Positions 42,174 to 64,000 of a stretch of 64,000 nucleotides of DNA are shown here, piece after piece. Every line of letters starts with the position of its first letter. The stretch's first letter is position 1. This DNA is from Acidobacteriota bacterium. Its GTDB lineage: Bacteria > Acidobacteriota > Terriglobia > Terriglobales > Acidobacteriaceae. Both the position numbers and the translations under genes were made by a program. Location: NCBI GenBank assembly GCA_021813745.1, contig JAKAJO010000136.1:1-64000 (forward strand), written 5' to 3'. A model generated the notes under the pieces. The model saw only the letters and a list, made by a program, of their open reading frames with translations, was not told the origin of the DNA and searched no databases.

Positions 42174-42218
42174 TTGAGTTAGCGTGCAGTTCGAAAGCTC
42201 TTATGGCTGGTGATTGCA

Positions 42219-44116: not shown

Positions 44117-44150
44117 ATGCTCCTGCGCCACTTGGCGAGTGAGGAAAAAT

Positions 44151-44684: not shown

Positions 44685-44694
44685 GGCCGTTGCC

Positions 44695-45450: not shown

Positions 45451-45691
45451 CAACTCACGCCGCATTGCTCAATGGAAACAACCGCACAAATGCACACATC
45501 CCGAAAGGCGCGCATATTGTGGGCCCTGCTTCATTCCGCCAAGCAACGTTACAACCCAATCTCCCACTTTTTTCAAGACAGGAATGTTTCGATCTAAGTG
45601 CCGTGTCGAAGCAAAACTGCGTCGTTCTGATCGGTTGAATGTGCGAACATCTGATTGCCTGTGTCCCAGATGGAAACACGTCCGGTCCCCC

Positions 45692-46663: not shown

Positions 46664-46806
46664 GTAATGGCCTTTCAGTTAAACTCAGTTCGATGGTCAA
46701 TGACTATGAGCTTGAAGATTGGTGAGTTGCATCAATCAAGTCCATCTAAACGGTGCGGCATGGCGTATCTCGCTTTGCTTCCGACTATTGAGACTCGGAA
46801 CTTGAG

Positions 46807-48018: not shown

Positions 48019-48279
48019 TTGTACCTGTCCGCTTAGAATTTATGGAAATTCTGCCACACCTGTGCTCAAGTCATTGCATCCCATCGAGCACCAACACATG
48101 CGCGACGCTCGCCCCGGCAGAGGGAACAGCGATCGCAAACTTTGTGCCACATGGAAGGAGTGGCTCTTGACGAGAATCTGTAAGAGCGGTTCAGCGAGAG
48201 CGCGGGCTTATGCTGCGATGTTCTGCGCTCCTGCGCCAAGTCAAGTGAAAGAAGATTCGTTGTCAGATTCGGAATGCGC

Positions 48280-48313
48280 AAAATGACTCCACTGTTGCGT
48301 GCCAGGAGTCATT
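48280..48313 (-). terminator. Switchable terminator of fluoride riboswitch 3
   Basis: On the minus strand AATGACTCC (48313-48305) pairs with GGAGTCATT (48290-48282) and is followed by a short T-run. The first arm is also the 3' end of the aptamer, so fluoride binding and termination exclude each other. Confidence 0.85.
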
Positions 48314-48351
48314 AGCCAATGGATTGGCGGCTTCGGTGGAACCCCATCACC
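48301..48351 (-). promoter_or_regulatory. Fluoride riboswitch 3, upstream of the MFS gene
   Basis: The minus strand reads GGTGATGGGGTTCCACC (48351-48335), GAAGCCGCC, AATCCATT, then GGCTAATGACTCCTGGC (48317-48301). GGGGTT can pair with GACTCC as the pseudoknot. TTGACA at 48406-48401 with a weak TTAGGC -10 is a possible promoter. Confidence 0.92.
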
Positions 48352-48633
48352 TAATGCGTTGTCTTCTCTACACCGAAGCCTAAAGTGAACGGACTGACCA
48401 TGTCAACGGAAGATGGCATGTCGCGCGGATAAGAAGAGGTTTATCGGATATATACGAACCTTCGTATTACGGAGTTGATGAATGGACTGGAACCGCATTC
48501 AGAAGCGCAACTGGCGCGCCGAGCAGAAAGGGAAATTTCTCTGATCAAACTGCACGTATCGCAGCACCGGCAAGGCCCTTTGTTCGGAAGATTGGGGAAT
48601 TGACGCAGATCAGCACTCTTTGCCATCCGAGCC

Positions 48634-49173
48634 TTACGATAGAGGACCGCGGATAATGTGCAAGGCCGAAGCAATTAGCTCAATCAACCCTGCTGACAGC
48701 ACAACCCATAGCGACTCCACTTTCCGCGTCAGAAGGACTGCGGTGCACACAATGAGTAGACCCCACGTGAATGGATCATGGGCGATTTCTCGAGTGAGAG
48801 GAACAGCCGATGCCCAGAGCAGGCCTGCGCTCGCCAGAACGACCGCTTGGATCATTGACTTCACTCTCGGATGTTCGGCTTTTGTGCTCGCGAACCGAAG
48901 TAAGGGGATGATCAGAAGTGCGGGCGTGACCATCGCAAGCCATCCGGCGACGGCTCCCGGCACACCATCCGCGAAATAGCCCACGCTGACGACATAAACG
49001 CCCACAGGACCTGGCGTGGTGCGCGTGACGACCACTGCGGTACTGAGCTGGCGATCCGTGATCATGCCGTAGTGCAACACAAGATCGCTGCGCAAAACTG
49101 GCAGGGACGCCAAACCGCTAAACGTCGTCACTGTGGCCTTTAGAAGAAGCGCATACAGGAGCAACAGCTTCAT
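48634..49173 (-). CDS. chrA: Chromate transporter, second half (short-chain ChrA)
   Basis: The protein has 179 residues from the ATG at 49173. It is a half-size CHR domain with six or so helices, containing TTFSGLASLPVLRSDLV and TRTTPGPVGVYVVSVGYFADG. It overlaps its partner half by 4 bases (ATGA). Two half-size CHR proteins with opposite topology act together to move chromate or other anions across the inner membrane. Confidence 0.85.
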   Translation of the reverse strand: MKLLLLYALLLKATVTTFSGLASLPVLRSDLVLHYGMITDRQLSTAVVVTRTTPGPVGVYVVSVGYFADGVPGAVAGWLAMVTPALLIIPLLRFASTKAEHPRVKSMIQAVVLASAGLLWASAVPLTREIAHDPFTWGLLIVCTAVLLTRKVESLWVVLSAGLIELIASALHIIRGPLS

Positions 49174-49724
49174 CGATCTGCCCTTGCCGATCCTGGGAGC
49201 AAGCTGCCAATCAGCGCCGCGCCCAGCAAGATCTGAATTGGGGAGATGCTCAGCATCGAGGCAATGAACGCAGCTGAGGTCAGCACCACGAGGCGCGTCT
49301 TCGTAACCGATTGGCGCAAGGGACGGATAATCGTCCACCCGGTGGCAAACATCACTGCGATGGCTGCTGCAATTGCGCCATGCATTGCAATCGTCACGGC
49401 TGGCTTTTTGTTGAGCACTTCGTAGAGCACCGTAACCAGGACGGCGAATAGCGAACAAGGCACTGAGGCGGCAATCAGGGCAGCAAGCGCACCGGGAAAT
49501 CCCCGCATCTTCCATCCAATTCCGGTGCAATAGGCCAAGACATTGGTACCCGGCGTCAAGCGAGCGAGTGCATAAGAAAGACTGGCCGTATCTCTGTCCA
49601 CCAACTTCTGGCGCTCGACGATCTCCTGATCGATCACCACCGTGGTAGCCGTTCCTCCACCAAACGTGAAGTTTGCATATCGCAGGAAGATCCAAACCAG
49701 TCTCGCGATGGATGGGCCAATCAT
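49170..49724 (-). CDS. chrA: Chromate transporter, first half (short-chain ChrA)
   Basis: The protein has 184 residues from the ATG at 49724 (MIGPS); the frame opens earlier at 49865. Diagnostic sequences are FTFGGGTATTVVIDQEIV and LARLTPGTNVLAYCTGIGW, the CHR signature. It is translationally coupled to the second half. Together they equal one full-length ChrA. The anion moved may be chromate or sulfate; fluoride transport is not known for this family. Confidence 0.88.
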   Translation of the reverse strand: MIGPSIARLVWIFLRYANFTFGGGTATTVVIDQEIVERQKLVDRDTASLSYALARLTPGTNVLAYCTGIGWKMRGFPGALAALIAASVPCSLFAVLVTVLYEVLNKKPAVTIAMHGAIAAAIAVMFATGWTIIRPLRQSVTKTRLVVLTSAAFIASMLSISPIQILLGAALIGSLLPGSARADR

Positions 49725-49907
49725 GTCATGAGAATACGGCAGTGAGCTTCTCAGAAACAGTTGATTGAAATTAACCTTGCCTCTCTTTACGTTCAAGCCC
49801 GCAACACTTCCTTTCCTCGTTGTCCGGCTTGGGCAATCGCCGCTCCGGCAGGCATGACATCCCATCGCACAGTTGACAAGAGCGCCTGCAGTGTCTACGC
49901 TCTGATT

Positions 49908-49995
49908 GAAGCATCAGGAGAGATGCGGCCAAAAGCCGTATCCGGCAACCGCGTTCTGGAGACGTTACGGTGCCTGAGCGAAAGCTCGATGCGCG
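49908..49995 (+). promoter_or_regulatory. SAM-I/SAM-IV-clan riboswitch upstream of metK
   Basis: The base stem is GCATC (49911-49915) with GATGC (49988-49992). Inside are an ATGCGGC/GCCGTAT hairpin, the conserved CCGGCAACC, an arm ending in CGGTGCC, and GAGC-GAAA-GCTC. The GCAACC ... GGTGCC pair is the hallmark of the SAM-I clan core. The next gene makes SAM, so this is feedback control. No terminator follows, which suggests translational control. Confidence 0.75.
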
Positions 49996-50090
49996 GAATG
50001 GAGTTTCCGAAGCAAGTCTCCGACGGCGACAATCGCCGACGTCGCAGTTGCGCTCCTGATCGAACGTTTTACTGATAAGGAGTGCACATC

Positions 50091-51251
50091 ATGGCGACCA
50101 TCGTGACCGAGACCAATTCAACTTCTCCTGTCCAGCACAATCAACCGACGACCTTTGTTTTTTCTTCCGAATCTGTCTCCGAAGGTCATCCGGATAAGGT
50201 TAGTGATTTCATCGCTGATTCTGTCCTCGATGCCCATATCAGCGAAGACCCCCACGCGCGGGTGGCGTGCGAGGTTCTCTGCAAGGGCAACACCGTCGTC
50301 TTAGGCGGAGAAATAACTTCTACGGCGAGCGTGGATCACGACGCAATTGTTCGTGAAGCGATCCGCCACATCGGCTACAACGACAAAGAGTCCGGATTCA
50401 ACCCGGACGATGTGCGCGTGCTCACACTCATCTCAAGCCAGTCTCGCGATATTGCTCTGGGCGTGGACACAGCCACGAATACTAACAAAGAACAGGGCGC
50501 GGGCGACCAGGGGATCATGTTTGGTTTCGCGTGCGATGAAACCGCGGAGTTGATGCCATTGCCCATCTCGCTGGCACATCGTTTAACCAGGGGACTTGCC
50601 GAAGATCGGAAGTCCGGGAGCTTTCCGTGGATTCGTCCCGATGCAAAGTCGCAGGTTTCCGTGCTCTACGAAGGAAATACGCCTGTCCTTGTGACAGATG
50701 TGCTCGTCTCCACGCAGCATGCGGCCGATGTGAGCCGGGAACAAATCGCGGCCTACATTCGCGACGTGCTCGCGCCGCGTGAGCTCGGCAATTGGTTCAA
50801 TCGCGACATCAAGTTCCATGTGAATCCGACTGGAAGCTTCGTCCTCGGCGGGCCCGCAGCTGACTGCGGCGTCACCGGCCGAAAGATCATCGCGGATACT
50901 TATGGCGGCGCGGCCCATCACGGCGGCGGAGCATTCAGCGGCAAGGACCCCTCGAAGGTTGACCGCAGCGCCGCGTATTTTTGCCGCTACGTCGCTCGCC
51001 AATTGGTCATGGAAGACCTTGCCAGGAAGGCCGAAATCCAAGTCGCTTACGCGATCGGTATGGCCCAGCCCATTTCGATCAAGATAGAGACATTTGGTAC
51101 CGGCGACGCAAAGGTGGCCCGCGAGTTTGTCAGCCAATTCGACTTCCGGCCTGCCGCGATCATTGAACGCTTGTCGCTGTTGCAACCACTCTATCGTCAA
51201 ACAACGAACTACGGTCACTTTGGCAAAGCCGGTCTGCCGTGGGAGAGCTAG
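50091..51251 (+). CDS. metK: S-adenosylmethionine synthetase
   Basis: The protein has 386 residues from the ATG at 50091, after an AAGGAG site. It forms SAM from methionine and ATP. Signatures are SESVSEGHPDKVSDFIADS, GAGDQGIMFGFACDET and GGGAFSGKDPSKVDRSAAY; the normal GAHGGG loop reads AAHHGGG. Metal ligands appear intact. It follows a SAM-responsive leader and lies in the fluoride-related region. SAM is also the substrate of the cyclopropane synthase of the first operon. Confidence 0.96.
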   Translation: MATIVTETNSTSPVQHNQPTTFVFSSESVSEGHPDKVSDFIADSVLDAHISEDPHARVACEVLCKGNTVVLGGEITSTASVDHDAIVREAIRHIGYNDKESGFNPDDVRVLTLISSQSRDIALGVDTATNTNKEQGAGDQGIMFGFACDETAELMPLPISLAHRLTRGLAEDRKSGSFPWIRPDAKSQVSVLYEGNTPVLVTDVLVSTQHAADVSREQIAAYIRDVLAPRELGNWFNRDIKFHVNPTGSFVLGGPAADCGVTGRKIIADTYGGAAHHGGGAFSGKDPSKVDRSAAYFCRYVARQLVMEDLARKAEIQVAYAIGMAQPISIKIETFGTGDAKVAREFVSQFDFRPAAIIERLSLLQPLYRQTTNYGHFGKAGLPWES

Positions 51252-51347
51252 AACCGGGCTCCCGGCGAATGCGTGATTGAAAGAGGCCGCACATATCTTT
51301 GTCCCATTTCGCAGCATGGGCAAAGTGACCGCGCGGAGGTCTTCTCG

Positions 51348-51674
51348 ATGCCGCGTTTTCGGATACGATCAAACGCCAATTTTCACAGCCGGTATGCTGC
51401 CTACGCATGCAATCACGGAATGACAGCAGAACAGATGCGATTGCATGATAGGCAGTACTATCCCGACGCGATGCTGACTCCCTATTTGTTTTGGCTCAGC
51501 TTGAAGAGGCTTGAATGGAACCGATTACATCCTGAACGACAGATCCAATCCGGGATGGAGCCGATTGAATTCGATCACTGGCTTCAGAAGTTGCAGCCAA
51601 CATTCAACGCTCTTACGTGCGAGTGCCATGTGGGTACAGCTCGACAGCATGGTCATCACTGCATCGGGCGCTGA
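51348..51674 (+). CDS. Hypothetical 108-residue protein
   Basis: The ATG at 51348 has an ideal GGAGG site 8 bases ahead. The sequence is rich in aromatic and basic residues (FHSRYAAYACNHGMTAEQM, TPYLFWLSLKRLEWNRLHPE) and ends with two Cys and several His. I recognise no family. The gene follows metK by 96 bases and overlaps the 3' end of the MutS-like gene on the other strand, which lowers confidence in its last part. Confidence 0.5.
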   Translation: MPRFRIRSNANFHSRYAAYACNHGMTAEQMRLHDRQYYPDAMLTPYLFWLSLKRLEWNRLHPERQIQSGMEPIEFDHWLQKLQPTFNALTCECHVGTARQHGHHCIGR

Positions 51675-53200
51675 AAGGAATCAGTCTTGCTCTGGAAAAT
51701 CCGCCTGAATAAATCTTCCCCATAACTCGTCGGCTCTGGAGGTCCTTCCAAAAGACGGTATGTGCGCGTCCCATTGTCCAGACGCTCGGCGCGGAGGAAG
51801 AGCACTGAATCCCTGCATTGTCGGTGAAATCCATCCGCCAGATCGAACATGTGCGTCACATAGAAAATTTTCACCTTCTTCTCAAGGAGAGCACGCACAA
51901 TCTGCCGGGCGATTTCCGACCCCTCCCGCTCATTGGTCGAAGCAAACGACTCATTCAGCAGAAGCATACAGCGAGGTGTAATTCGCTCGACAATTGCGCT
52001 CATTCTGCTGAGTTCTTCATCGAGCTTGCCACTCTTCATGCCGGCATCTTCTTCTCGCTTGAAATGCGTAAAGACGCCCTGGCAGATGTTCGCCGCAAAT
52101 TCCCGAGCTGGCACGAACATGCCGCACTGCATCATAAGTTGAGCCAGGCCTATGCTGCGCAACAATGTCGATTTGCCGCCGCGGTTGGCGCCCGTAATCA
52201 TAAAGAGAGCAGTGTTCTCGCCGGCAATGTCATTGCCGACGACCCTTTCCTCTGTGTTCAGTGCCAGGCAAACGTCATAGATTCCTCGGCAGCCAAGTGT
52301 CTCGTCTCGATCGAGCAAGGGTCTTGGCAGACAGAATGGTTCCTGTTTTGCGTCCAGCTTCTCCCGTAGGTTGAGGCAGCCTATATAGAATCCCAGTTCC
52401 TGCCGGAGTGCCTTAAAGAAACTCAGGATGTGATCGCTTGATTCCGCCAGGGCAACCGCGACGTTAACGATACCCTCTGTCCTGATTGCTTCCAGCGCGC
52501 GGAAGCCCGCCTCATCCCGTGGGTCAACCTCGAATGTCAACCCCGAGCCACGCTTGTGCGCGATCTGTCCCACCCATTCCTGGACCTTGTCGAACCAACC
52601 GAGCTCCTTTACCGCCAGGCCGTGGAGAATGTAATTCTTCCCTCGCAAGTCAGACCCGAGATCGGCGCTCATCAAAATTCCGTCCCGGAATTCCAGCTGT
52701 TTCAACTGGTCCTTCACCGTCTGCAGATAGGTATCATCCAGTTCCTGGGCAATCATGCCGAACAACCGCCGAAATCCTTCAGACCGGAATTTCGAACTGT
52801 GCTCATCGGAGATCTTCCTTAAGTGCTCCAGCGAACCGACAAACAACCCAAGTGCCTCGACAGACCGGTGCAACAGGGAATTTGGGGAAGAGAGCGAGAA
52901 CCAGCCCCAGATCTTGCTCTCGCGTCCAATCGAATCGACCGATAGAGTGTAAAGTTCCTTCACAATCGCCTGGAACTCCAAGCAATCGGAGAGAACCTCT
53001 TGCCGGTAGAGAATCGTTTCTTGGTCTTTGAGGCTTGCCAGTACAGCGACCTTGGCCACTTCGCGCAAAAAGCTGTCGCCGCCGCTCATCGCCTGGAACA
53101 GAGTATTCAACTCGAGGTCCTGGATCAGTTCAGAAGCATTTGCGAGTACGCCCTCTTCCAGACTGAAGTCCCGATCGCGAAACATGAGGAAGACTTTCAT
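51656..53200 (-). CDS. MutS-like ATPase, second gene of the pair
   Basis: The protein has 514 residues. A helical lever/clamp-like region (about 20-320) precedes a MutS-type ATPase: Walker A TGANRGGKSTLLRS, and Walker B LLLNESFASTNEREG in which the usual Asp is Asn. ITHMFD-like HMFDLADGF ends the core. The mismatch-binding domain of true MutS is missing, so it belongs to the uncharacterised MutS-like families. It overlaps the first MutS-like gene by 4 bases, pointing to a heterodimer, and shares its fluoride riboswitch. Confidence 0.88.
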   Translation of the reverse strand: MKVFLMFRDRDFSLEEGVLANASELIQDLELNTLFQAMSGGDSFLREVAKVAVLASLKDQETILYRQEVLSDCLEFQAIVKELYTLSVDSIGRESKIWGWFSLSSPNSLLHRSVEALGLFVGSLEHLRKISDEHSSKFRSEGFRRLFGMIAQELDDTYLQTVKDQLKQLEFRDGILMSADLGSDLRGKNYILHGLAVKELGWFDKVQEWVGQIAHKRGSGLTFEVDPRDEAGFRALEAIRTEGIVNVAVALAESSDHILSFFKALRQELGFYIGCLNLREKLDAKQEPFCLPRPLLDRDETLGCRGIYDVCLALNTEERVVGNDIAGENTALFMITGANRGGKSTLLRSIGLAQLMMQCGMFVPAREFAANICQGVFTHFKREEDAGMKSGKLDEELSRMSAIVERITPRCMLLLNESFASTNEREGSEIARQIVRALLEKKVKIFYVTHMFDLADGFHRQCRDSVLFLRAERLDNGTRTYRLLEGPPEPTSYGEDLFRRIFQSKTDSFQRPMQ

Positions 53201-54855
53201 GATGGGTCCCCGTCACTTTGCGTGGCGCCGACACGCGCCTTCACCGCGTCATAGGTCAGGTGATATTTCTCTGCGATAGCAATGGCGTAAGCAAGCCCAT
53301 CGGCGGGCCTACGGATCACCTTGAATGTCCGCTGTTGCGGGTCGCTGGGATTCACCGTGCTGACCATGCTCACGGTCGTTTCATTAAACGCGGCTAATTC
53401 GTCGAGAAAGGTCACAGTGACGCAGAGCATGTGCAGCGCAGCAATGCGCTTCATCACTTCGCGACTGAGGAAGAGTGCGTCCTTCATGGTCGTGGATAGA
53501 AAGCTCTCGTTCATAATGAGGATGCTCCTCGCAGTCGCTTTCTCAAGAATCTCGTTGATGCGGATCAGTTCGTCTTCAAGCTTTCCGCGTAGATTCTGGA
53601 TGTCCTCTTCCTTTTCGAAGTGCGTGAAGAGCTTGTCAAAAAGGAACAATTTTGCTGACATACCCGGCACTGGACAGCCGAGAGCGGCCAGGTAATGCAG
53701 TTGTCCATAAGTGCGAGCAAACGTGGTCTTCCCGCCCTGATTGGGTCCGGAGACGACAAAGATACGTTCTGGCTCCTTCAGGTAAAAGCTGTTCTGAACC
53801 ACATTCTTTCGGGCACGAATCAACTGATTGGCAAGCGCGAGGTCGTAGGTATCGAGTGCCTGAATCTCTTTTGAATGGCTGCTCACGGCCGGGAAGCAGA
53901 ACGGAAGTCCAGCCTTCTTCAATGGTTCCATCTGTTCGAGATAGGCGATGTAGAACTGCACTTCCCGGTCGAATCTGGTCATCAGCTCATGGCAGTAGTT
54001 CCGGTGGCGATCGCAGTATTCGTCCAGATGCGTGAAGACCTCCGCATGCAGCGCTGCGACGAGATCGAGAATGCGCGCTTCGATGTGATTCATCTCGGTC
54101 GACAGAGGCACCTTGAGCTGATGACGTCGCGGATCGGCTTGCCGGAATTTCGCAAAGGTTCTGAGAACCTCTTCGCTGAAATCACCACCCGTATCCTTGC
54201 AATCGACGGTGACACGCCCCTGATGGACGTGGAGTGAGTATCGAACCTCAGCGAGATCCGCTCGGACCTTCTCCGTTTCTCTTCTCAGGACAGTGAAGTC
54301 CTCTGAAGCAGAATAGCGGAGCAGAAAATCGCGGAGCGCCTGCAAGCCTCTCGATACAGGACCAACAGAGAGCAATCCGTCTGCGAGCTTCAGCGTCGCG
54401 CTGCAGTACGTCTCGATGGCATCGAGAAAAGCTGCTTGCTTTTGACGCTTGTAGTACCGCTTTTCGGCGATCGCGAGATGAGCGCGCATGTTCGCCATGC
54501 TCTCAGCGAATGAACGAATGAGCTGCAGCAGGCGGGAATTCTCGATCAGATCACGGAAGACATCCTGACGATAATGGACAGCCTCAACGCTTGTTACGGG
54601 TGAGTGAAAGAACGGCACCAGATTGTATTGTTCTCGCCCGGTCGTAATCAAATTGACAATCTGATCAAGATTCAAATCCGGAAAGCATTCCGGCATTTCC
54701 TGCCCCTCACCCAGGCCATCGGGTTCCCAAGCATCGCCCAGAATGCTACGAAAAGGCTGGGTTTCCACGACGAGTCCATCAGCTCCAGAAGTTGCCGGAG
54801 GGCTGGAATGTTCCGCAGGAAATGCACTCAGATGATCAGCGGGCCGTATAGGCAC
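53197..54855 (-). CDS. MutS-like ATPase, first gene of the pair
   Basis: The protein has 552 residues with a GTG start. It has a long helical region and then a MutS-type ATPase with Walker A VVSGPNQGGKTTFART and Walker B ILIMNESFLSTT, again with Asn in place of Asp. No mismatch-recognition domain is present. MutS-like genes are among those known behind fluoride riboswitches, but their job is not established. The start codon and its AGGAG site lie inside the switch structure, so fluoride should act on translation. Confidence 0.88.
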   Translation of the reverse strand: MPIRPADHLSAFPAEHSSPPATSGADGLVVETQPFRSILGDAWEPDGLGEGQEMPECFPDLNLDQIVNLITTGREQYNLVPFFHSPVTSVEAVHYRQDVFRDLIENSRLLQLIRSFAESMANMRAHLAIAEKRYYKRQKQAAFLDAIETYCSATLKLADGLLSVGPVSRGLQALRDFLLRYSASEDFTVLRRETEKVRADLAEVRYSLHVHQGRVTVDCKDTGGDFSEEVLRTFAKFRQADPRRHQLKVPLSTEMNHIEARILDLVAALHAEVFTHLDEYCDRHRNYCHELMTRFDREVQFYIAYLEQMEPLKKAGLPFCFPAVSSHSKEIQALDTYDLALANQLIRARKNVVQNSFYLKEPERIFVVSGPNQGGKTTFARTYGQLHYLAALGCPVPGMSAKLFLFDKLFTHFEKEEDIQNLRGKLEDELIRINEILEKATARSILIMNESFLSTTMKDALFLSREVMKRIAALHMLCVTVTFLDELAAFNETTVSMVSTVNPSDPQQRTFKVIRRPADGLAYAIAIAEKYHLTYDAVKARVGATQSDGDPS

Positions 54856-54934
54856 AGGTGACTCCTCAAGTACTACCTCGCAGGAGTCATCTTCCCCTCG
54901 TTGAAGGGGCGCATCAGAGTGGACTCCAACACCC
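54856..54934 (-). promoter_or_regulatory. Fluoride riboswitch 4, translational, upstream of the MutS-like pair
   Basis: The minus strand reads GGGTGTTGGAGTCCACTC (from 54934), TGATGCGCC, a hairpin, then ATGACTCCTGC (to 54880). GGAGTC can pair perfectly with GACTCC. In the alternative fold TGACTCCT pairs with AGGAGTCA (54866-54859), hiding the ribosome site of the GTG at 54855. The conserved AAC of the core is GATG here, so it is a divergent member. Confidence 0.75.
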
Positions 54935-54945
54935 GCTCCATCTCA

Positions 54946-54974
54946 GTATTATGAGCGCCATGACAGACTGTCAA
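54946..54974 (-). promoter_or_regulatory. Promoter of the MutS-like operon
   Basis: On the minus strand TTGACA (54974-54969), a 17-base spacer and TAATAC (54951-54946) precede the riboswitch by 11 bases. Confidence 0.75.
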
Positions 54975-55051
54975 TGACGAGTCAACTCGCTCGGAAGCTG
55001 CTCGCAACACACGGCGGTACCGACATGGGACGCAAAATGGCAGCGATAGTC

Positions 55052-55080
55052 TTGACAAGTAGGTTCTTACGGTTCAATAT
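55052..55080 (+). promoter_or_regulatory. Promoter of the hydrogenase-related operon
   Basis: TTGACA (55052-55057), a 17-base spacer and CAATAT (55075-55080) are close to consensus. Transcription should begin about 15 bases before the riboswitch. It is back to back with the promoter of the MutS-like genes. Confidence 0.75.
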
Positions 55081-55101
55081 GTTGGCAGTAAATGTCGGAA
55101 C

Positions 55102-55150
55102 GGTGATGGAACTCCACCGCTAACCGCCTTCACGGCTGATGATTCCTACC
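55102..55150 (+). promoter_or_regulatory. Fluoride riboswitch 5, upstream of the hydrogenase-related operon
   Basis: The sequence GGTGATGGAACTCCACC, GCTAACCGCC, TTCAC, GGCTGATGATTCCTACC matches the fluoride aptamer closely; GGAA can pair with TTCC in the pseudoknot. A long (225-base) leader follows. No clear terminator is seen, so the switching step is not defined. Confidence 0.92.
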
Positions 55151-55153
55151 CCG

Positions 55154-55300
55154 ATGAGGAGACGCGCCGTGAAGAGAGCAGTGAAGAAGTACGCTCCAAG
55201 CCCCCAGCATCCCGATTCAGATCTTTCCCTCCAGATTCCACCGCCCACCCAGCTGCGGCTTAGTCCGTTTATTCTTCTGGTCACGGTGCGCCGCTGCTAG
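55154..55300 (+). CDS. Possible 48-residue leader peptide
   Basis: A frame from ATG 55154 to TAG 55298-55300 begins just after riboswitch 5. It is very basic at first (MRRRAVKRAVKKY), then proline-rich, and ends in a hydrophobic stretch (FILLVTV). There is no strong ribosome site. It may be a leader peptide or chance. Confidence 0.3.
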   Translation: MRRRAVKRAVKKYAPSPQHPDSDLSLQIPPPTQLRLSPFILLVTVRRC

Positions 55301-55375
55301 ACGCAGGTAAAGAGCGGTTCGCTCGATCCTTCGCGCTCAGCGGCCAATGCAGCTGCATAACACAGGGGAGTTCTG

Positions 55376-56335
55376 ATGGCACGGACAATTCTGTACAACC
55401 TCATCCAACTTCTCTTCGTACTCGGCTTCGCGCCGTTGTATTCCGGGGTGCTCAGCCGGTTCAAAGAGATCATCCAGAGCAGGCGCGGCCCAAGCATCTT
55501 TCAGCCGTATCGGGATCTTTGGAAGTTGTTTCACAAAGATGAGATCGTCTCATCGGAAACCACGTGGATATATCGCATCACACCTTACCTGGTGTTTATC
55601 GTGCCCCTATTCGTCGCGAGCCTGATACCAGTCCTCACCGCTTACCCGCTGGCCTTTGCGTTTATGGGCGATATGCTTGCCGGCGGTTTTTTCCTCGGAC
55701 TTGGTGGCTTCTTCGCGGCCCTTGCAGCCGTCGATACCGGGAATCCCTATGGTCCCATGGGAGCGAGCAGAACCCGCATGGTTGGGTTTCTTGCAGAACC
55801 CGTCTTCATGATTGTGTTCTTTACGGTGTCGTTTGTGGCCCAGTCCACGATTCCATATATCGTTCAACAAAAGTGGGTAGTGAGCCCGATTGCATTCTTT
55901 TCGCCCGCGCACATTCTCTTGCTGATTGCTTTCCTTATGCTGATTCTGGCCGAGGGCGGAAAGATTCCCGTCGACAATCCGACTGGGCACTTTGAACTCG
56001 CCATGATTGATGAGTCAAAGGGACTCGAGTACTCAGGCCGTGGCGCCGCTTTGATGAAGTGGGGCGGCCAAATGAAGTTCCTGGTACTCACCTGCATCTT
56101 TCTCAACGTGCTCCTGGCGCCCTGGGGCTTAGCCGCTGATGTGCAATTTGGTCATGTGGCGCTGGCAATACCGCTGATCCTATTCAAGATTCTGTTGTTC
56201 ACGATCGTCCTGGTCATGATCGAGTCGTCACTTGCCAAGTTGCGACTCTTTCGCATTAGCGAGTTTCTTGGAGCCGCGTTCATCATCTCTGTGGCCGCGA
56301 TGATCGCGAGTATCTTTTCAGCGTCGGCTGCTTAG
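55376..56335 (+). CDS. NuoH/HyfC-like membrane subunit
   Basis: The protein has 319 residues, after a GGGGAG site. It has eight helices and the NuoH/HycD landmarks: RFKEIIQSRRGPSIFQPYRDLWKLFHKD, GASRTRMVGFLAEPVF, and LAEGGKIPVDNPTGHFELAMIDES. In complex I and group 4 hydrogenases this subunit links the Fe-S arm to the ion-pumping arm. It is the first gene of a seven-gene run behind fluoride riboswitch 5. Confidence 0.92.
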   Translation: MARTILYNLIQLLFVLGFAPLYSGVLSRFKEIIQSRRGPSIFQPYRDLWKLFHKDEIVSSETTWIYRITPYLVFIVPLFVASLIPVLTAYPLAFAFMGDMLAGGFFLGLGGFFAALAAVDTGNPYGPMGASRTRMVGFLAEPVFMIVFFTVSFVAQSTIPYIVQQKWVVSPIAFFSPAHILLLIAFLMLILAEGGKIPVDNPTGHFELAMIDESKGLEYSGRGAALMKWGGQMKFLVLTCIFLNVLLAPWGLAADVQFGHVALAIPLILFKILLFTIVLVMIESSLAKLRLFRISEFLGAAFIISVAAMIASIFSASAA

Positions 56336-56347
56336 GAAGGTGTTGGT

Positions 56348-57040
56348 GTGGCAAGTGCTCAAACACAGCTGATCGAAGGACTCAACGCATTGAGCGGCGG
56401 GCTGATTCTACTCACGGCATTTGGCATGGTTGCGATGCGCCAGGTGCAGGGAGTAATGCGATTTTTCATCGTACAGTCTGCGTTGCTGGCTACCTCGGCC
56501 TTCTTGATCGGATTCAACCGCGGCTCGATTCACCTTATTGCCCTCGGCGTCATCACCATCGGAGCAAAGGTCATCGCTATACCTTTGGTTCTCAAGTGGG
56601 CGCTCTCAGAAGATCTCTACCAACGCCGCGAAATCGATCAGGTAATCAACATTCCATCTTCGCTTTTGCTTGTGCTCCTTCTCGCAATTGCTGCGGAGTT
56701 CCTGGTCAGCCCACTGGTCAGCATTTCGAATGACCCGGTGGTCCATGTCAATCTCCCCATCAGCCTCGCCCTCATTCTGATCGGTGCGTACTCACTCATT
56801 GCTCGCCGAGAGGCCATTCCGCAGTTGGTTGGAATTCTGGCAATGGAAAATGGAGCGTTCTTTGCCGGAGTGGCAATCGCGCAGGAGCTTCCTCTCATTG
56901 CCGAACTCGCGATCGCAATCGACGTAATCCTGATCGCCGTGGTCATCGGAGTCCTCACGCGCGATATCACGCGAGCGATTGGCACAACGAGAGCCGCAAC
57001 AATGAGCGAATTGAGAGAGGAGCCTCAACAATGGCGCTGA
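56348..57040 (+). CDS. HyfE-like membrane subunit (NuoK-related)
   Basis: The protein has 230 residues with a GTG start. It has six or seven helices and resembles HyfE of hydrogenase-4, whose centre is related to NuoK/MrpC. The motifs EFLVSPLV and IAMENGAFFAGVAIAQELPL are typical. It would take part in the proton or sodium path of the complex. It begins 12 bases after the NuoH-like gene and overlaps the next by 10. Confidence 0.85.
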   Translation: MASAQTQLIEGLNALSGGLILLTAFGMVAMRQVQGVMRFFIVQSALLATSAFLIGFNRGSIHLIALGVITIGAKVIAIPLVLKWALSEDLYQRREIDQVINIPSSLLLVLLLAIAAEFLVSPLVSISNDPVVHVNLPISLALILIGAYSLIARREAIPQLVGILAMENGAFFAGVAIAQELPLIAELAIAIDVILIAVVIGVLTRDITRAIGTTRAATMSELREEPQQWR

Positions 57041-58476
57041 TGGTCGCCGTCTTTATTCCATTGCTTGCGGCGCTTTTGTGTTGGATTCGGCCCTTCCGCG
57101 CCTTCGCTTGGGTCATCACGGTCGTCTGTTTGGCGGGCAGCTTTGCAGCTGCGGTCGTCATCGCGGCACACGTTCTCGCCGCCGGAAGCGTCGTAGGAAT
57201 TCCTGGTTGGTTCGAAGCCGATGGATTAAGCGCTCTCGTGATCCTTCTGGTCAGCTTTGTCTGTACCCTAGCGGCAATCTTCGCTGGGGGATACATGCAC
57301 CATGGAAGCCAGAATGAAGATCGCCTCTGGTGGTTCTACTGCAACTTCAATCTGCTGGTTTTTGCCTTGATTGTTGTGCCCGCATTTGCCAGCCCAAATC
57401 TAGCCTGGGTCGGTGTGGAATTGATCACACTTTTCGGGGTCCTGCTGGTTGGGTTTGAAAGGACTCCGGCTGCACTGGAGGCAGCCTGGAAGTTCTCCAT
57501 CCTAACGATCATGGGTGCCCCAATCTCGTTGCTCGGCTTCTTCACCCTGTACTGGGCATATCACATCAGCGGCGGCGGCCCTCTGGAGACATGGCAGGGA
57601 CTGCACGCATCGGCCGCAGTAATGTCCCCGAACCTGCTTAAATTCTCATTCCTGCTGGTATTCGTAGGATTCGGAGCGAAGTCAGGCCTTGCTCCCATGC
57701 ATACCTGGCTACCCGATGCTCATAGCCAGGCGCCCACGCCGATCTGCGCAGTGCTTTCGGGAATTAAAACGACGGTGCCCTTATACGCAATCCTTCGTCT
57801 TCTCTCGATTGTCCTTGCGTCACCGGAAGCGCGAATCGGCCGTTGGATGGTGGTGATCGGGCTCTTCTCTGTAGGAATCGCCGCATTCCTGCTTTTGCAG
57901 GTGCGCGATTACAAGCGAATGTTCGCCTTTTCCACTGTGGAGCACATGGGCATCATTCTCACCGCGGCTGGCTTTGCAACTCATGCGGCAGACTATGGGG
58001 CTGTCGCTCAGATGGTGAACCATACGCTCACCAAGTCTCTTTGCTTTTACTCGGCCGGGATCGTATTGCTGGCGCTTGAAACCCGCCAAATTAGCGAGGT
58101 GCGTGGGCTTTTCCGCATCGCTCCATTTGCAGCGAGCGCACTTCTCTTTTGCTCCCTGGCAATCGCGGGTGCACCGCCGTTTCCAATTTTTCTGAGTGAG
58201 TTTTCGATCTTGTCTGCGGGCCTTCGATCGGGACACACCGCTGCGGTCACCATTCTTGCCATCCTCATCGTCATCGCGTTTATTGCGATCTTCCTGCATG
58301 TGAACCGAATGCTGTTCGGCGAACCTCAACAGGTTGAAACGGCGCCGTCGGCGCCGCTAAGCTGTCGGGTTGCAATCATCATCGCAGCACTCCCAGTCGC
58401 TGTCCTCGGCGTTTACATCCCCGGGCCGGTTCACTCATTGATGATGCTCGCCGCGCAACAATTGGGAGGACATTGA
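57031..58476 (+). CDS. HyfF-like antiporter-type subunit (NuoL/M/N family)
   Basis: The protein has 481 residues and about fourteen helices. Key ion-path residues are seen: a glutamate in AWVGVELITLFG, lysine in GFGAKSGLAPMHTWLPDAHS, and lysine in MVNHTLTKSLCFYSAG. These are hallmarks of Mrp-type antiporter subunits that pump ions. An intact ATG follows GAGAGGAG. It is one of three such subunits in this operon. Confidence 0.92.
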   Translation: MALMVAVFIPLLAALLCWIRPFRAFAWVITVVCLAGSFAAAVVIAAHVLAAGSVVGIPGWFEADGLSALVILLVSFVCTLAAIFAGGYMHHGSQNEDRLWWFYCNFNLLVFALIVVPAFASPNLAWVGVELITLFGVLLVGFERTPAALEAAWKFSILTIMGAPISLLGFFTLYWAYHISGGGPLETWQGLHASAAVMSPNLLKFSFLLVFVGFGAKSGLAPMHTWLPDAHSQAPTPICAVLSGIKTTVPLYAILRLLSIVLASPEARIGRWMVVIGLFSVGIAAFLLLQVRDYKRMFAFSTVEHMGIILTAAGFATHAADYGAVAQMVNHTLTKSLCFYSAGIVLLALETRQISEVRGLFRIAPFAASALLFCSLAIAGAPPFPIFLSEFSILSAGLRSGHTAAVTILAILIVIAFIAIFLHVNRMLFGEPQQVETAPSAPLSCRVAIIIAALPVAVLGVYIPGPVHSLMMLAAQQLGGH

Positions 58477-58477
58477 G

Positions 58478-60103
58478 ATGGCAGACTATTCCTCACACAT
58501 TGCCGGAGGCAGTGCAGCCAGTCTCATTGACCTGACCACTGCGCTTGAAGAGCGCTTCGGGAACCGGGTCGCGCAGGTGACGGAAGACGGCGGCATCGTC
58601 CTTGCACTCGCACCCTCTGAGCCGGCCACGTTACCTGAATTGTGCCGATTCCTGTTCTGGGATTACGGCTGCCTTTTTGGCGGAATCACTGCGGAAGAAC
58701 AGCCGAGTCGTTGGCAGGTTCATTACGCGTTTCTCCTTCCGGCATCAGGATGGATCGACGTTACGATCAGCCTTCCGTTGGAGACAACGGCTCTGCCAAG
58801 TCTAGTAGGGGATGTGCACGCCGCTGATTGGCACGAGCGTGAGATAGAAGACCTTTTCGGCATTCATTTTGAGAACCATCCCCGGCTGGGCGACTTTGTG
58901 CTGCACGACCAGATCTGGCGCGAAGGCATCGACCCGATGAGAAAGCGGTTTGCTGCCGATCACCCGCAGTTGGAGCGCAAAGTCGATCTCGAGTGGCAAC
59001 CCTTGCTGGTTGTCGGAGATCCCGGGTCGTTTGCAATGCCAGTTGGACCGGTCTATGAGGGCGGTATTGGTGAATCGCTGCACTTCCTCCTCGAGACGGT
59101 CGGAGAAGACGTCATTCGCGCCGTACCGCGTCTTTTCTACAAATACCGGGCCGTCGAGAAAATCGCAGAAGGCAAAAGCGTTCTCGACGCACTCCTACTT
59201 GCTGAGAGGTTCGCGGCAACATCTGCATTTGCGCATTCGCTGGCATTCTGCCAGGCAGCTGAGAGAATCGCGGGCATCAAGGTACCGCCGCGAGCTCAAG
59301 CACTCCGAGTTCTGCTTGCAGAGCTGGAAAGATTGCGGCACCACGCCGGTGCAATTGCGGCCATCTGTGAGTCGACAGCGCTGGCTGTTTCCGCGGCACA
59401 AGCCGCAATGATCGAAGAAAAACTACTCCGTGCTACCTGCGCGTTCACGGATCACCGCTACCTGTTCGGGCTGAATACTCCCGGTGGGCTCTGTCGCGAC
59501 TTCGAGCCGGAGAAGTGCAAGGCCTTGCTGCTTGCAGTGGATAATGCGGATGGAGATCTCCAGGTTCTTGAGAATCGGCTCCGCTACAGTAGCAGTTTTC
59601 TCGATCGCCTCGAAGAGGTCGGAGTCGTTAACGGAGAGAGCGCAAGGGACTTGAACCTGGTCGGCCCGATTGGGCGTGCATCGGCTCAGCAGTGCGACCT
59701 GCGGAGGGCATGCCCTTACTCCGGCTACGAACAGTATGCCTTTGAGGTCCCTTGTGAGACGGAGGGCGATGGATACGCGCGACTGCGCGTGCTCTTTGCG
59801 GAGGCAGTGCAGTCGAAAAAATTGATCCATCGCGTCGTAGAGAAACTTGAGCAGGGCCCTGTTCGCGTCGCTTGCGACGTGCAACGCCCGGGTGCTGCGA
59901 TGGGTTGGGTGGAAGCGCCAAGAGGCGCCGCACTGCATTGGCTCAGAGTGAATGAAAAGGGTGTCGTCGAGCGTTATCGGGCAATCACTCCATCCTTTAA
60001 CAACTGGCTCGGGTTTCACATGGCCGCAGAGAATTTTGCTTTCCAGGACTTCCCAATCATTCTTGCAACATTCGGGTTGTCGGCGACTGAATGTGATCGA
60101 TAG
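58478..60103 (+). CDS. HyfG-like catalytic-subunit homologue without Ni-binding cysteines
   Basis: The protein has 541 residues. A NuoC-like domain (1-150, with WHEREIEDLFGIHFENHPRL) is fused to a NuoD/hydrogenase large-subunit-like domain. In [NiFe] enzymes the first site reads ERICGICS; here ERFAATSA (243-250) has Ala246 and Ser249 at the cysteine positions. The last site, normally DPCxxC, appears as GLSATECDR with Ser535 and Glu538. All four Ni ligands are therefore lost, as in the energy-converting-hydrogenase-related (Ehr) complexes and NuoD. It probably does not make or use H2. Confidence 0.9.
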   Translation: MADYSSHIAGGSAASLIDLTTALEERFGNRVAQVTEDGGIVLALAPSEPATLPELCRFLFWDYGCLFGGITAEEQPSRWQVHYAFLLPASGWIDVTISLPLETTALPSLVGDVHAADWHEREIEDLFGIHFENHPRLGDFVLHDQIWREGIDPMRKRFAADHPQLERKVDLEWQPLLVVGDPGSFAMPVGPVYEGGIGESLHFLLETVGEDVIRAVPRLFYKYRAVEKIAEGKSVLDALLLAERFAATSAFAHSLAFCQAAERIAGIKVPPRAQALRVLLAELERLRHHAGAIAAICESTALAVSAAQAAMIEEKLLRATCAFTDHRYLFGLNTPGGLCRDFEPEKCKALLLAVDNADGDLQVLENRLRYSSSFLDRLEEVGVVNGESARDLNLVGPIGRASAQQCDLRRACPYSGYEQYAFEVPCETEGDGYARLRVLFAEAVQSKKLIHRVVEKLEQGPVRVACDVQRPGAAMGWVEAPRGAALHWLRVNEKGVVERYRAITPSFNNWLGFHMAAENFAFQDFPIILATFGLSATECDR

Positions 60104-60114
60104 AGGTAACTGGC

Positions 60115-60870
60115 ATGAGCTTCTGGTTCTGGCACGGATTGCGCAAGGGCATTCAATCGACCCGGTATCCACTGGGGATTGAGGACTCTCCTGGCGTTTC
60201 TCCGGGACGCCCGGTGAATACCGATTTCTCAACCGTTGAAGAGGCACAACGCGCCGCCGATATTTGTCCAACCGGGGCAATTGTTGCCCACGACAGATCG
60301 ACATACGTGAACCATGGAAAATGCGTACACTGCCAGCGCTGCCTTCATTCCTTGCAATCTCCCATGAATTGGAAGGCTGGGTACGAGTGGGCCCGTCTGC
60401 CCGCAAATCAAACAGAATCACTTCCCTTGCCTTCCCCTTTTGCGAAGTCAATGCACATCATGGTTGTGGATGCCGGAGACTGCGGCGCCTGTCTTCATGA
60501 AGTGAAGCAACTCAATAACCCTCTCTACAACATGCATCGACTTGGGTTCTTTTTCACGCCCACACCGCGCTCCGCAGATCTTCTCCTCGTCGTAGGGCCA
60601 GTGAGCGAAAACATGCGTGGACCTCTGCTCAAAACATGGGAAGCAATGCCGACCTCAAGAAAACTGATGGCGGTCGGCAGTTGCGCCATTTCAGGTGGAG
60701 TATTTGGAAAAAGCTTTATGTGCGCTGGAGGTGTGGGTCAAGTCCTGGATGTCGATTTTGAAGTTCCCGGCAACCCTCCGCCGCCTCTCGCAATCCTGCA
60801 CGGTCTCCTGGTCGTCGCCGGCAGAAAGTCGTTGAAGAGTCCTGAACCAATCTTGAAAGGGAGATCTTGA
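60115..60870 (+). CDS. HyfI/NuoB-like subunit fused to a ferredoxin-type domain
   Basis: The protein has 251 residues. The N-terminal part has a 4Fe-4S set C51 and C70-C73-C76 (CVHCQRC). The NuoB/HyfI-like domain has C123, C126 (GDCGACLHE) and C190 (VGSCAISGG), but the fourth ligand, normally Cys in VPGCPP, is N220 (VPGNPPPP). C203 could substitute. An altered proximal cluster fits the absence of a Ni site in its partner. The gene is 11 bases after the large-subunit gene. Confidence 0.9.
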   Translation: MSFWFWHGLRKGIQSTRYPLGIEDSPGVSPGRPVNTDFSTVEEAQRAADICPTGAIVAHDRSTYVNHGKCVHCQRCLHSLQSPMNWKAGYEWARLPANQTESLPLPSPFAKSMHIMVVDAGDCGACLHEVKQLNNPLYNMHRLGFFFTPTPRSADLLLVVGPVSENMRGPLLKTWEAMPTSRKLMAVGSCAISGGVFGKSFMCAGGVGQVLDVDFEVPGNPPPPLAILHGLLVVAGRKSLKSPEPILKGRS

Positions 60871-60873
60871 TCA

Positions 60874-63018
60874 ATGGCATTGATCACTGGCGCATCGCTG
60901 ATTGCGTTCTTTTTCGTTTGCGCGGCGGCAGTCTTGTTCTCTGCCTTGCTCGGTCGCGCGCGCATTCCTACAGTGCTTGCGTCGGCAGGAGTCCTGGCAG
61001 CCCTTCTGATGGTCTTGATGTCCATCACTGTGCTCGTCACCGGTCAGCCATTTAACGCCGCACTCTGGACGCTCGATGGGTTTGGCAGCTTCACCATTCG
61101 CCTCGATCCGTTGTCCTCCATCTTTCTTCTCATCTCCGGCATTGTCTACTTTTCCGCGTCGCTGTATGTGGGGAGTTTCCTGAAAAGGCACGGAGATGCA
61201 GCGTATCCCAGCCTGCGTTACACAAGTCTGTACTTTGCGCTGATGGCTTCGGTCGTCTTAATTCTCTTGGCTGGTGATACGCCCCTGTTTCTCATCAGCT
61301 GGGAATGCATGTCCATCCTGTGTTTCTTGCTGATCAATTATGACCCGATCAGGCAGTCAGACAAGTCTGCCGGTTACATCATGCTGGCCATGAGCGAAGC
61401 TGGCTTTCTAGCGGTCGCCGTGGCCTTCATCCTTGTCGCTCGTTTTGCCGCGGATTTCTCATTTTCGGCCCTGCGAGCAGCCGGAGCAACACTCTCGCCG
61501 CAGACTATGTGGTCCGCCTTCCTGCTCGGGTTCTTCGGCTTCGGCGTAAAGGCCGGTTTGGTGCCAGTTAACTTTTGGCTCCCGCGATCCTATACCGCCG
61601 CTCCGCCGGTCTTCATACCCGTCTTCGCTGGCATCACACTCAACCTTGGGTTTTACGGAATCCTGCGGCTTAACGCTGACCTTATGCATACAGGCTACGG
61701 TGCGGGTCTGGTGGCTTTGATTGTCGGCAGCGTCACGGCTTTGGTCGGAATTCTCTACGCAACCACGGAGGGCGACATGAAAACAATGCTCGCCCATAGT
61801 TCCATCGAGAATGCAGGAATCATCGTCGCCGCCATCGGTGCCTTCTTAGTCTTTCGTGCCTTCTCTGAACCCGTTGCCGCTGCGCTCGCACTTTCCGCCG
61901 CTCTCTACCACATCGTCAATCATTCGGTTTACAAGACTCTTCTCTTCGAAGGCGCTGGTCACGTGGAGGCTGCGACAGGCACGCGTGAGATGGACCAGCT
62001 TGGCGGACTCGCGCACCTGCTGCCCGGCTTATCAGTCGTCTTTCTCGTAGGATGCCTGGCGATTTCCGCGGTTCCTCCGTTCAACGGCTTCGTCAGTGAA
62101 TGGATGACCCTGCAAACGATGCTGCGCAGCGCTGTCCTTACGTCAACTTCAGTAAGGATCGTCTTCGCGCTCTGCGGTGCCGCGCTCGCGCTGACCGCGG
62201 CGTTAGCGGTAACCTGCTTCGTAAAAACCTACGCGATGAATTTTCTTGGATTCCGCAGAGGAGCATGGGAACTGCGACCCGAGTCGAAATTGGTGAGCAA
62301 GTTTCCAATGGCGTTTCTCGCGATTGTCTGCCTGTTGATGGGAATCCTCCCGACATACATCCTCCCGCTGCTGAACGAAGGCGTTGCGCCTCTGGCAGGC
62401 GCAAGCATCACCACCGCTCTCGTGCAACCATTTTTTACTGCGACGCCCGAGAATGCACAGCTTCCTCCCGCGTTCCTCCAGGATTTTCACAATCTTGGCG
62501 CGCAGGCTGGTCGAAGATTCATCCCCGGTCGCGGACTCGTGGTGCTTCTCCGAGGCGGTGCGGCAAATCCAGTCGTTTTCGCAATGTCGCCTTCCTACAG
62601 CATCATTGCTTTGGCTGTGCTCTTCGTAGTGGCGTGGTTTGGACTGAGGCGCTTGACGCGGCACCGCACTTTGACCAGGCGCCCGGTATGGGCAGGAGGC
62701 ATCCCAAGGCTTCTGCCGCTTTTGACATACACCGGAACGGGATTCTCCAATCCCGTCCGCGTTGTCTTTCAGGCCATCTTTCGACCGAACATCGTCGAAG
62801 ATACGCGACAGACCGTGGCAGCACATTTCCGCACCGCCATTCACAGAAAGCGTGAAGAGACGCATGTTGTTGATCGTCTGCTGCTCAAGCCGGTGGGAAT
62901 TGCCGTGGAATGGGTTGCCAACTTTCTGGCCCGTATGCACCACGGAAAACTGAATGCCTACGTCACCTATGTCTTGGCGTTCTTCTTGCTCGTGCTGTTC
63001 TTCTATCGTGGAGGTTAG
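60874..63018 (+). CDS. HyfB-like antiporter-type subunit 1 (NuoL family)
   Basis: The protein has 714 residues, longer than HyfF because of a C-terminal domain and a last helix like the NuoL arm. Landmarks are ISWECMSILCFLL, GFGVKAGLVPVNFWLPRSY, and LYHIVNHSVYKTLLF. The lysines and the glutamate of the ion path are present. It begins 3 bases after the HyfI-like gene, after an AGGGAGA site. Confidence 0.92.
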   Translation: MALITGASLIAFFFVCAAAVLFSALLGRARIPTVLASAGVLAALLMVLMSITVLVTGQPFNAALWTLDGFGSFTIRLDPLSSIFLLISGIVYFSASLYVGSFLKRHGDAAYPSLRYTSLYFALMASVVLILLAGDTPLFLISWECMSILCFLLINYDPIRQSDKSAGYIMLAMSEAGFLAVAVAFILVARFAADFSFSALRAAGATLSPQTMWSAFLLGFFGFGVKAGLVPVNFWLPRSYTAAPPVFIPVFAGITLNLGFYGILRLNADLMHTGYGAGLVALIVGSVTALVGILYATTEGDMKTMLAHSSIENAGIIVAAIGAFLVFRAFSEPVAAALALSAALYHIVNHSVYKTLLFEGAGHVEAATGTREMDQLGGLAHLLPGLSVVFLVGCLAISAVPPFNGFVSEWMTLQTMLRSAVLTSTSVRIVFALCGAALALTAALAVTCFVKTYAMNFLGFRRGAWELRPESKLVSKFPMAFLAIVCLLMGILPTYILPLLNEGVAPLAGASITTALVQPFFTATPENAQLPPAFLQDFHNLGAQAGRRFIPGRGLVVLLRGGAANPVVFAMSPSYSIIALAVLFVVAWFGLRRLTRHRTLTRRPVWAGGIPRLLPLLTYTGTGFSNPVRVVFQAIFRPNIVEDTRQTVAAHFRTAIHRKREETHVVDRLLLKPVGIAVEWVANFLARMHHGKLNAYVTYVLAFFLLVLFFYRGG

Positions 63019-63106
63019 AACCTGCGGAATGCCCCCACACCGCTGTTCATCCTCGCGATGAGTCCGAGGGGAACTCAGGCGGAGGCTCCCGAGATCTGGG
63101 GGGTTC

Positions 63107-64000
63107 ATGAATTCTGTTGGGTTGGCATTGGCTTTGCTCTTCGCAGCTTGCGTCTTGGGCATCCTTGTCGGGGTGCTTGTCCCGCAGCGGCGGATTCCCG
63201 TAATCCTGACCTGGGTCGGTTCGATTGCCGCGGCACTGGCGTTATGGGCTTCGGGAGTTGTTCTTGTCTATGGGGGAGAGTTCCATCAGACTCTCTGGAC
63301 GATCCCATCAATCGGCACGCTGACGATTCTTCTTGACCGGGTATCCGCGTTTTTCCTTTTCATTGCTGCAGTTGTCATTCTGGCCAGCTCAGTGTTCTCT
63401 GCTGGCTATATGAAGCGCTTCGTCGGCCACTATAACTTGGCGGCATTCAATGCCTGGTATCTGGTTCTGTGTGCCTCGATCGTGTGGATCCTGATCGAGA
63501 GCGATGTCTTCGGCTTCTTGCTCGCCTGGGAAGCGATGTCCATTTCGAGTTATCTTCTGGTGAACTTCGAGCATCGGCGCAACGGTACCAGCCAGGCTGG
63601 TTACCTGATGCTGTCGATGAGTGAAGCTGGGTTCATCGCCGTAACCGTGGCGTTTCTCGTACTCGCAATCGGCACTGGATCCTGGCAGTTTTCTGACCTC
63701 AAGAGCGCAGCCACCGGGCTGAGTCCATTGGTCCACTGGACTGTCTTTTTGCTGACTTTCTTCGGTTTCGGCGTGAAGGCTGGCCTCGTTCCAGTGAACG
63801 CCTGGCTGCCCAAAGCACACCCAGCCGCGCCTGCCAATGTATCTGCCATTCTTTCCGGAGTGATTCTGAATCTGGGCCTCTACGGAATCATCCGCGTGGA
63901 TTTTCAAATCGCCCCCCTCACGACGACCGGGGCAGGACTGGTGATGCTTCTCACTGGCACGGTGTCTGCTCTCGTAGGCATCCTTTACGCGACCACTGAA
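63107..64000 (+). CDS. HyfB-like antiporter-type subunit 2 (partial at right edge)
   Basis: The frame from ATG 63107 stays open to the window end (298 residues). The sequence parallels the previous gene: LAWEAMSISSYLLVNFE, YLMLSMSEAGF, FGVKAGLVPVNAWLPKAH. It is thus a second NuoL/HyfB paralogue in the same operon. The 88-base gap before it and an AGGCGGAGG-rich leader allow separate translation. The rest of the operon is outside the window. Confidence 0.92.
   Translation, partial: MNSVGLALALLFAACVLGILVGVLVPQRRIPVILTWVGSIAAALALWASGVVLVYGGEFHQTLWTIPSIGTLTILLDRVSAFFLFIAAVVILASSVFSAGYMKRFVGHYNLAAFNAWYLVLCASIVWILIESDVFGFLLAWEAMSISSYLLVNFEHRRNGTSQAGYLMLSMSEAGFIAVTVAFLVLAIGTGSWQFSDLKSAATGLSPLVHWTVFLLTFFGFGVKAGLVPVNAWLPKAHPAAPANVSAILSGVILNLGLYGIIRVDFQIAPLTTTGAGLVMLLTGTVSALVGILYATTE

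Follow-up and report, generated by a model that had tools for sequence, protein, structure and literature searches.

A fluoride-linked, Ehr-like branch of probable energy-converting membrane complexes without nickel ligands, seen from an Acidobacteriota operon

Ehr complexes are defined by a large subunit related to that of group 4 hydrogenases and without the NiFe CxxC motifs (PMC10284858 and PMC6349859, available in part). Their function is called unknown in the available part of PMC10284858; no tested function is reported in the accessible portions of PMC6349859, PMC10284858 and PMC6688271, the last of which proposes pH homeostasis, and the word "fluoride" does not occur in the text at hand of PMC10284858 and PMC6688271. 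On the fluoride side, an excerpt of Weinberg 2010 (PMC2864571) reports crcB RNAs upstream of mutS genes and of genes for formate hydrogen lyase. In the portions at hand, PMC8004769 also names the latter as a fluoride-riboswitch gene and PMC11139923, citing Baker 2012, repeats it, counting it among the commonest enzymes so controlled, with a role in fermentation. The accessible text of PMC11139923 further states that hydrogen fluoride (HF) lowers pH and proton-motive force, and that fluoride export depends on proton-motive force, and it counts Na+/H+ antiporters among the known responses to fluoride. The subject here is a seven-gene operon in a 4.6 Mb Acidobacteriota genome (GCA_021813745.1), most of it in the window, meaning the 64,000 nucleotides analyzed, which are bases 1-64000 of contig JAKAJO010000136.1 (C29; 117,191 bases). 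It probably encodes an energy-converting membrane complex under fluoride control, a member of the complex I/group 4 hydrogenase superfamily and not itself a hydrogenase or a formate hydrogenlyase. The link between fluoride riboswitches and "formate hydrogen lyase" was already known; that the present clade is a nickel-less, Ehr-like branch was not found in the literature searched, where (subscription papers being mostly outside it) the matches listed held no Ehr or hydrogenase-like link to fluoride riboswitches beyond mentions of formate hydrogen lyase.

The operon has the order H-E-F-CD-B6-B1-B2, with all genes on one strand (55376-65251) 3' of an aptamer that scores above the Rfam gathering cut-off (54.4 vs. 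34 bits):

55093..55155, + strand: fluoride riboswitch aptamer (RF01734) at the operon head; Rfam 54.4 bits, model R1 57 bits
55376..56335, + strand: H, NuoH/HyfC-like membrane subunit, 319 amino acids (Pfam PF00146, E 1.3e-30)
56348..57040, + strand: E, HyfE-like subunit, 230 amino acids (NCBIfam hydrogenase 4 membrane subunit E, 2e-18, below cut-off)
57031..58476, + strand: F, HyfF-like antiporter subunit, 481 amino acids, with E130, K217 and E390
58478..60103, + strand: CD, NuoC-NuoD/HyfG-like large subunit, 541 amino acids, with A246/S249/S535/E538 at the Ni positions
60115..60870, + strand: B6, one-cluster ferredoxin domain and NuoB/HyfI-like small subunit, with N220 at the fourth ligand
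60874..63018, + strand: B1, HyfB-like antiporter subunit, 714 amino acids
63107..64000, + strand, continuing to C29:65251 beyond the window: B2, second HyfB-like subunit, 714 amino acids

The fold of the leader is uninformative (z-score -0.74). Operons of the same kind occur in 11 of 59 genomes of the genus, this one included (by large-subunit matches of 53% identity or more), so that their distribution is patchy; the nearest large-subunit rows are from metagenome-assembled genomes (MAGs) of Acidobacteriaceae.

Fluoride linkage is a conserved property of the clade. Scanning species genomes with protein similarity as the sole criterion yielded 147 relatives, of which 80 loci, 48-83% identical, were kept. 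Record titles and taxonomy put these under twelve phylum names: Acidobacteriota, Nitrospirota, Myxococcota (as "Deltaproteobacteria"), Binatota, Planctomycetota, Verrucomicrobiota, Actinomycetota, Pseudomonadota, Thermodesulfobacteriota, Bacillota, Spirochaetota and one Chlamydiota bin; all 80 come from MAGs, and single phylum placements may reflect binning errors. Sixty-one loci have an H gene with more than 200 bases upstream (19 do not). R1 matches lie within 700 bases upstream in 52 of these, and with L132, where R1 missed a good aptamer that Rfam found, the aptamer stands directly before the first gene in 53. At six more (L114, L119, L130, L138, L140, L144) an aptamer at the Rfam cut-off precedes the FluC, DUF190 or GTPase gene that itself precedes H on the same strand, bringing the total to 59 of 61; L092, with 219 bases to the contig edge, has none. 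Fourteen of the 52 R1 matches score below 30 bits: ten were confirmed at the Rfam cut-off, and those of L095, L137, L146 and L153 are calls by R1 alone. The set is slightly redundant, with identical large subunits in L109 and L110 and one MAG each behind L105/L106 and L137/L138. Among 21 Acidobacteriota control loci (18 classic Ehr, 3 with all four Ni cysteines) R1 found no aptamer, nor did Rfam in 19; in two controls, L048 and L049, the first gene reaches the contig end and upstream DNA is missing. Fisher's exact test, which ignores relatedness, gives p = 7.8e-13 for 52/61 against 0/21 and 6.0e-12 against 0/19. Classic Ehr operons on four plasmids (L172, L174, L175, L176) likewise have no aptamer by R1; the large subunit matches 235 plasmid records, all below 60% identity.

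The head of the complex differs from that of a hydrogenase at the metal site itself. In alignment, E. coli HycE C241, C244, C531 and C534 correspond to A246, S249, S535 and E538 of the window's large subunit. Across 80 large subunits (the window's and 79 of the 80 scanned loci, the fragment L113 being excluded), position 246 is A in 45, S in 28, N in 3, C in 2 and T in 2; position 249 is S in 40, T in 28, A in 10 and C in 2; position 535 is S in 79 and C in one; and position 538 is E in all 80, which makes a four-cysteine Ni site impossible in every member of the clade. No aligned row has four cysteines, and the near-fixation of S535 and E538 favors a new use over decay. An acid at position 538 is also present in the two complex I rows compared. 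Elsewhere, the position of HycE D529, a canopy residue in the accessible part of PMC9474812, is G in 54, D in 14 and A in 10 of the 80, while all 19 classic Ehr rows have N there; the R478 position is R in 54 of 80, and Glu193 is retained as E199 in 68 of 80. The closest solved structure is HycE, and the MBS subunits 6u8y_L and 6u8y_J are also among the solved relatives of the operon's proteins. Loops at the former Ni site are predicted with a local distance difference score (pLDDT) below 50, and no pocket geometry is claimed for that reason. The C-terminal extension was set aside as a test of Ni maturation, since the four-cysteine rows L044, L045 and L047 lack it as well.

In the small subunit, whose closest solved structure is HycG, a ferredoxin domain is fused to NuoB. 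Set against HycF and NuoI, this domain retains the CP and the second CxxCxxC and has lost the first, corresponding to a single [4Fe-4S] cluster, presumably N6b, which would adjoin N2. Its cysteines C51, C70 and C76 are present in 77 of 77 sequences and C73 in 76 of 77, and the NuoB-type C123, C126 and C190 in 78 of 78. With seven of the eight iron-sulfur cysteines near-invariant, the head looks altered, not dead. The loss of the first CxxCxxC was dropped as a mark of fluoride linkage: a single motif is also found in four-cysteine rows and in classic fusions, including L051, L054, L078, L079 and L081-L084.

The membrane arm comprises H, E, F, B1 and B2, with the Glu/Lys pairs of the F and B antiporter subunits conserved. 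In H two NuoH glutamates are replaced; the same change is found in classic Ehr, and T203/H205 was therefore discarded as a special feature. The initial annotation had described an Ehr-like head with all four Ni cysteines replaced as listed above, on a complete ion-pumping arm under fluoride control. The alignment to HycE, the five membrane subunits, and the aptamers beside FluC, DUF190, enolase and pyrophosphatase genes bear out the head without Ni ligands, the complete membrane arm and the fluoride linkage, and the relatives extend these to the clade. Its interpretation is in part supported: "inactive" fits the head less well than "altered", given the invariant or nearly invariant ferredoxin and NuoB cysteines and S535/E538, and N220, which it had pointed out at a cluster ligand, is indeed present in the window and does not define the clade, the ligand being Cys in 28 of 77; as a defining trait it was dropped.

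In the large-subunit tree the fluoride-linked heads are separated from the classic Ehr rows sampled. The 80 rows above (type 1) form a branch with support 100/100, and a second head type (type 2, SDT[GA], four rows) another with 100/100; both, with a row from a Mycobacterium branderi plasmid (an E/A/C/G head on a very long branch), lie on one side of a branch supported at 89/100 (85 rows). When the plasmid row and NuoCD are removed and type 1 is cut to 25 rows, types 1 and 2 unite at 96/99.7 (29 rows). The 19 classic Ehr rows form a separate neighboring branch (95/79), in a tree that does not include reference Ehr such as that of Geobacter. Within type 1, rows of different phyla are interspersed, a sign that these operons may have been transferred horizontally.

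Several other heads were seen along the way. The type 2 heads (L085, L171, L080, L086) carry an FGLTMA motif, have two CxxCxxC motifs in two of three small-subunit rows, and occur in 1 of 250 genomes of the class (E 1e-120); an aptamer lies some 100 bases upstream of H in both loci with upstream DNA (L085, L171), making this a second fluoride-linked head type. The M. branderi plasmid (L173, 5289-15828) carries an aptamer, a NUDIX gene, a very divergent operon, enolase and DUF190, with the aptamer before the NUDIX gene and H. The genome of L056 (G000:C64) and L059 (G000:C53) has, in addition, a classic Ehr with an SSSG head and no aptamer, and a NuoD, amounting to three head types within one cell. 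L044, L045 and L047 combine all four cysteines with an Ehr-like NuoH motif and are possible intermediates between Ehr and Hyf.

What might such a complex do under fluoride? As a weak acid HF gets into the cell and dissociates there, and FluC releases F-, so that each cycle would bring in a proton and cost membrane potential. Fluoride binding to the conserved aptamer would raise expression. The electrons could come from a soluble carrier that is shared, ferredoxin being the simplest case, and pass through the one-cluster ferredoxin domain to the NuoB-type cluster and on to an acceptor at the former NiFe pocket, where Ser535 and Glu538 now form the lining. Their passage would, in the manner of complex I, drive export of protons or Na+ through H, E, F and B, restoring the gradient spent by HF and needed by FluC. 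The parts of this reading are not equally secure. That the complex is fluoride-linked and no hydrogenase is nearly certain; that it pumps, driven by redox chemistry, against HF stress is somewhat better than an even bet, judged from sequence. More tentatively, the superfamily may contain a third kind of head besides the NiFe and the canonical quinone sites, with a Ser/Glu pocket that would be fed by two iron-sulfur clusters, one of them with an exchangeable fourth ligand, in a complex that may have spread horizontally and may hold the proton-motive force under fluoride.

Several observations weigh against redox-driven pumping under fluoride control. No redox partner, donor or substrate gene is among the families that recur beside the operon in the 80 loci. 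The fourth NuoB ligand is not Cys in 49 of 77 rows, having changed at least four times on the tree; it is Cys in all 15 classic and four-cysteine rows where the motif was found, L052, L055, L057 and L058 yielding no such motif. Nqo4 H38 and Y87, which we take to be the quinone-site His and Tyr of complex I (NuoD), correspond to I197 and A247 in the window protein. Complex I-like NuoD genes occur in most clade genomes (by a PF00346 search, which also picks up the operon's own subunit and is therefore not a strict control of completeness), making the complex not the sole pump. No aptamer was found at L151, and a terminator scan of 54850-55450 gave no terminator-like site, the stretch between aptamer and first gene included.

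The missing donor gene, the lost Ni ligands and the variable fourth ligand would all suit a redox-silent arm, a Mrp-like cation/proton antiporter or regulated channel with the head as structural or gating plug, and Na+/H+ antiporters do belong to known fluoride responses (PMC11139923, available in part). A mere plug should drift, however, and neither the seven cluster cysteines over 78 small subunits nor S535/E538 have done so, which leaves this explanation unlikely. Another possibility is that the head has been repurposed: its main job would be redox chemistry on a substrate produced or spared under fluoride stress, with pumping secondary, much as in the archaeal sulfane reductase MBS. The fixed pocket residues, the relaxed canopy positions (D529, R478) and the two MBS structures among the relatives point that way; no substrate gene recurs in the neighborhood, though, and the pocket model is of low confidence, so this too is improbable.

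Production of H2 from formate or ferredoxin, as by a formate hydrogenlyase or other hydrogenase, is suggested by subunit homology to Hyc/Hyf and by the name given to fluoride-riboswitch genes in the portions seen of PMC2864571, PMC11139923 and PMC8004769. E538 argues against it in 80 of 80 rows, and blastp (E 1e-5) found no homologue of FdhF, HycB, HycH, HycI, NuoE, NuoF or NuoG at the 80 loci, many of which are on short contigs, so that absence applies to loci and says nothing of whole genomes; E. coli fdhF, too, is unlinked from hyc. HypD matches are present in 34 of 49 clade genomes, the window's included, and therefore make a weak hydrogenase indicator; their absence from the other 15, to which MAG gaps may contribute, also speaks against a hydrogenase. 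The name is unfit for the clade, given the lack of formate-dehydrogenase and hydrogenase-maturation homologues at these loci, and the explanation is highly improbable. Least credible of all, the operon might merely hitch-hike in islands of fluoride genes such as the one it sits in, its aptamer a relic, while the aptamer lies directly upstream across phyla despite differing neighbors, with reading frames and key residues kept at 48-83% identity.

That island spans 38996-54942 of the window and C29:72663-74547. Aptamer matches on contig C29 number seven, from 38996 to 74547; three reach the Rfam cut-off and four are weaker. Those besides the operon's own, and a further one elsewhere, are:

38996, + strand: aptamer near a phosphoesterase gene
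44032, + strand: aptamer near a pyrophosphatase gene
48296, - strand: aptamer near an MFS gene
54874, - strand: weak aptamer near a MutS-type pair
C29:72663, - strand: aptamer near GTPase-FluC-DUF190 genes
C29:74472, - strand: aptamer near an enolase gene
C7:29959: further aptamer, on another contig

The MutS-type pair, side by side at 51656-54855 (- strand), encodes MutS domain V proteins of 514 and 552 amino acids; it is divergent from the operon, has its own weak aptamer, and recurs at 10 of the 80 loci. Genes for dynamin-like GTPases lie at 42210-43919, C29:66693-68447 and C29:70555-72645, and form the commonest neighbor family (23 of 80). Families at five or more of the 80 loci are these GTPases, MFS, phosphoesterase, FluC, DUF190, enolase, MutS-V, HEAT proteins, pyrophosphatase and one without a Pfam match.

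If the third-head reading is true, this would be an Ehr-type complex with a known physiological trigger: Ehr function is unknown in print, and a whole branch here carries a built-in clue in its aptamers (59 of 61). If the main reading is right, fluoride would be answered by a dedicated energy-converting complex besides export and spare enolase and pyrophosphatase, and both HF uncoupling and the Ehr role would become testable. The label "formate hydrogen lyase" is corrected for this clade, leaving aside how the clade relates to the earlier literature examples.

In comparison with known systems, the operon resembles the fluoride riboswitch regulon in its RF01734 aptamers and its FluC, enolase, pyrophosphatase and MutS-type genes, and differs in that the member here is a large energy-converting complex, named formate hydrogen lyase in the literature. 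It is like E. coli Hyc/Hyf in its best solved matches (HycE for the large subunit, HycG for the small), but lacks the Ni cysteines, the 32-residue C-terminal extension and any formate module at the locus, and has one ferredoxin cluster instead of two. From complex I (NuoCD, NuoB, NuoH, NuoL/M/N) it differs in having no NuoE/F/G at the 80 loci and different residues at the quinone His/Tyr positions. The likeness is to Ehr: group 4-like subunits, Mrp-type antiporters (here F, B1, B2), a large subunit recognizable as Ehr by its lack of the NiFe CxxC motifs, and the same NuoH motif change. It departs from classic Ehr in gene order (H-E-F-CD-B6-B, vs. B first), in its pocket (S/E, with E538 in 80 of 80, vs. 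G at position 538 in 19 of 19), and in forming its own branch, with a fluoride aptamer where the sampled classic loci have none.

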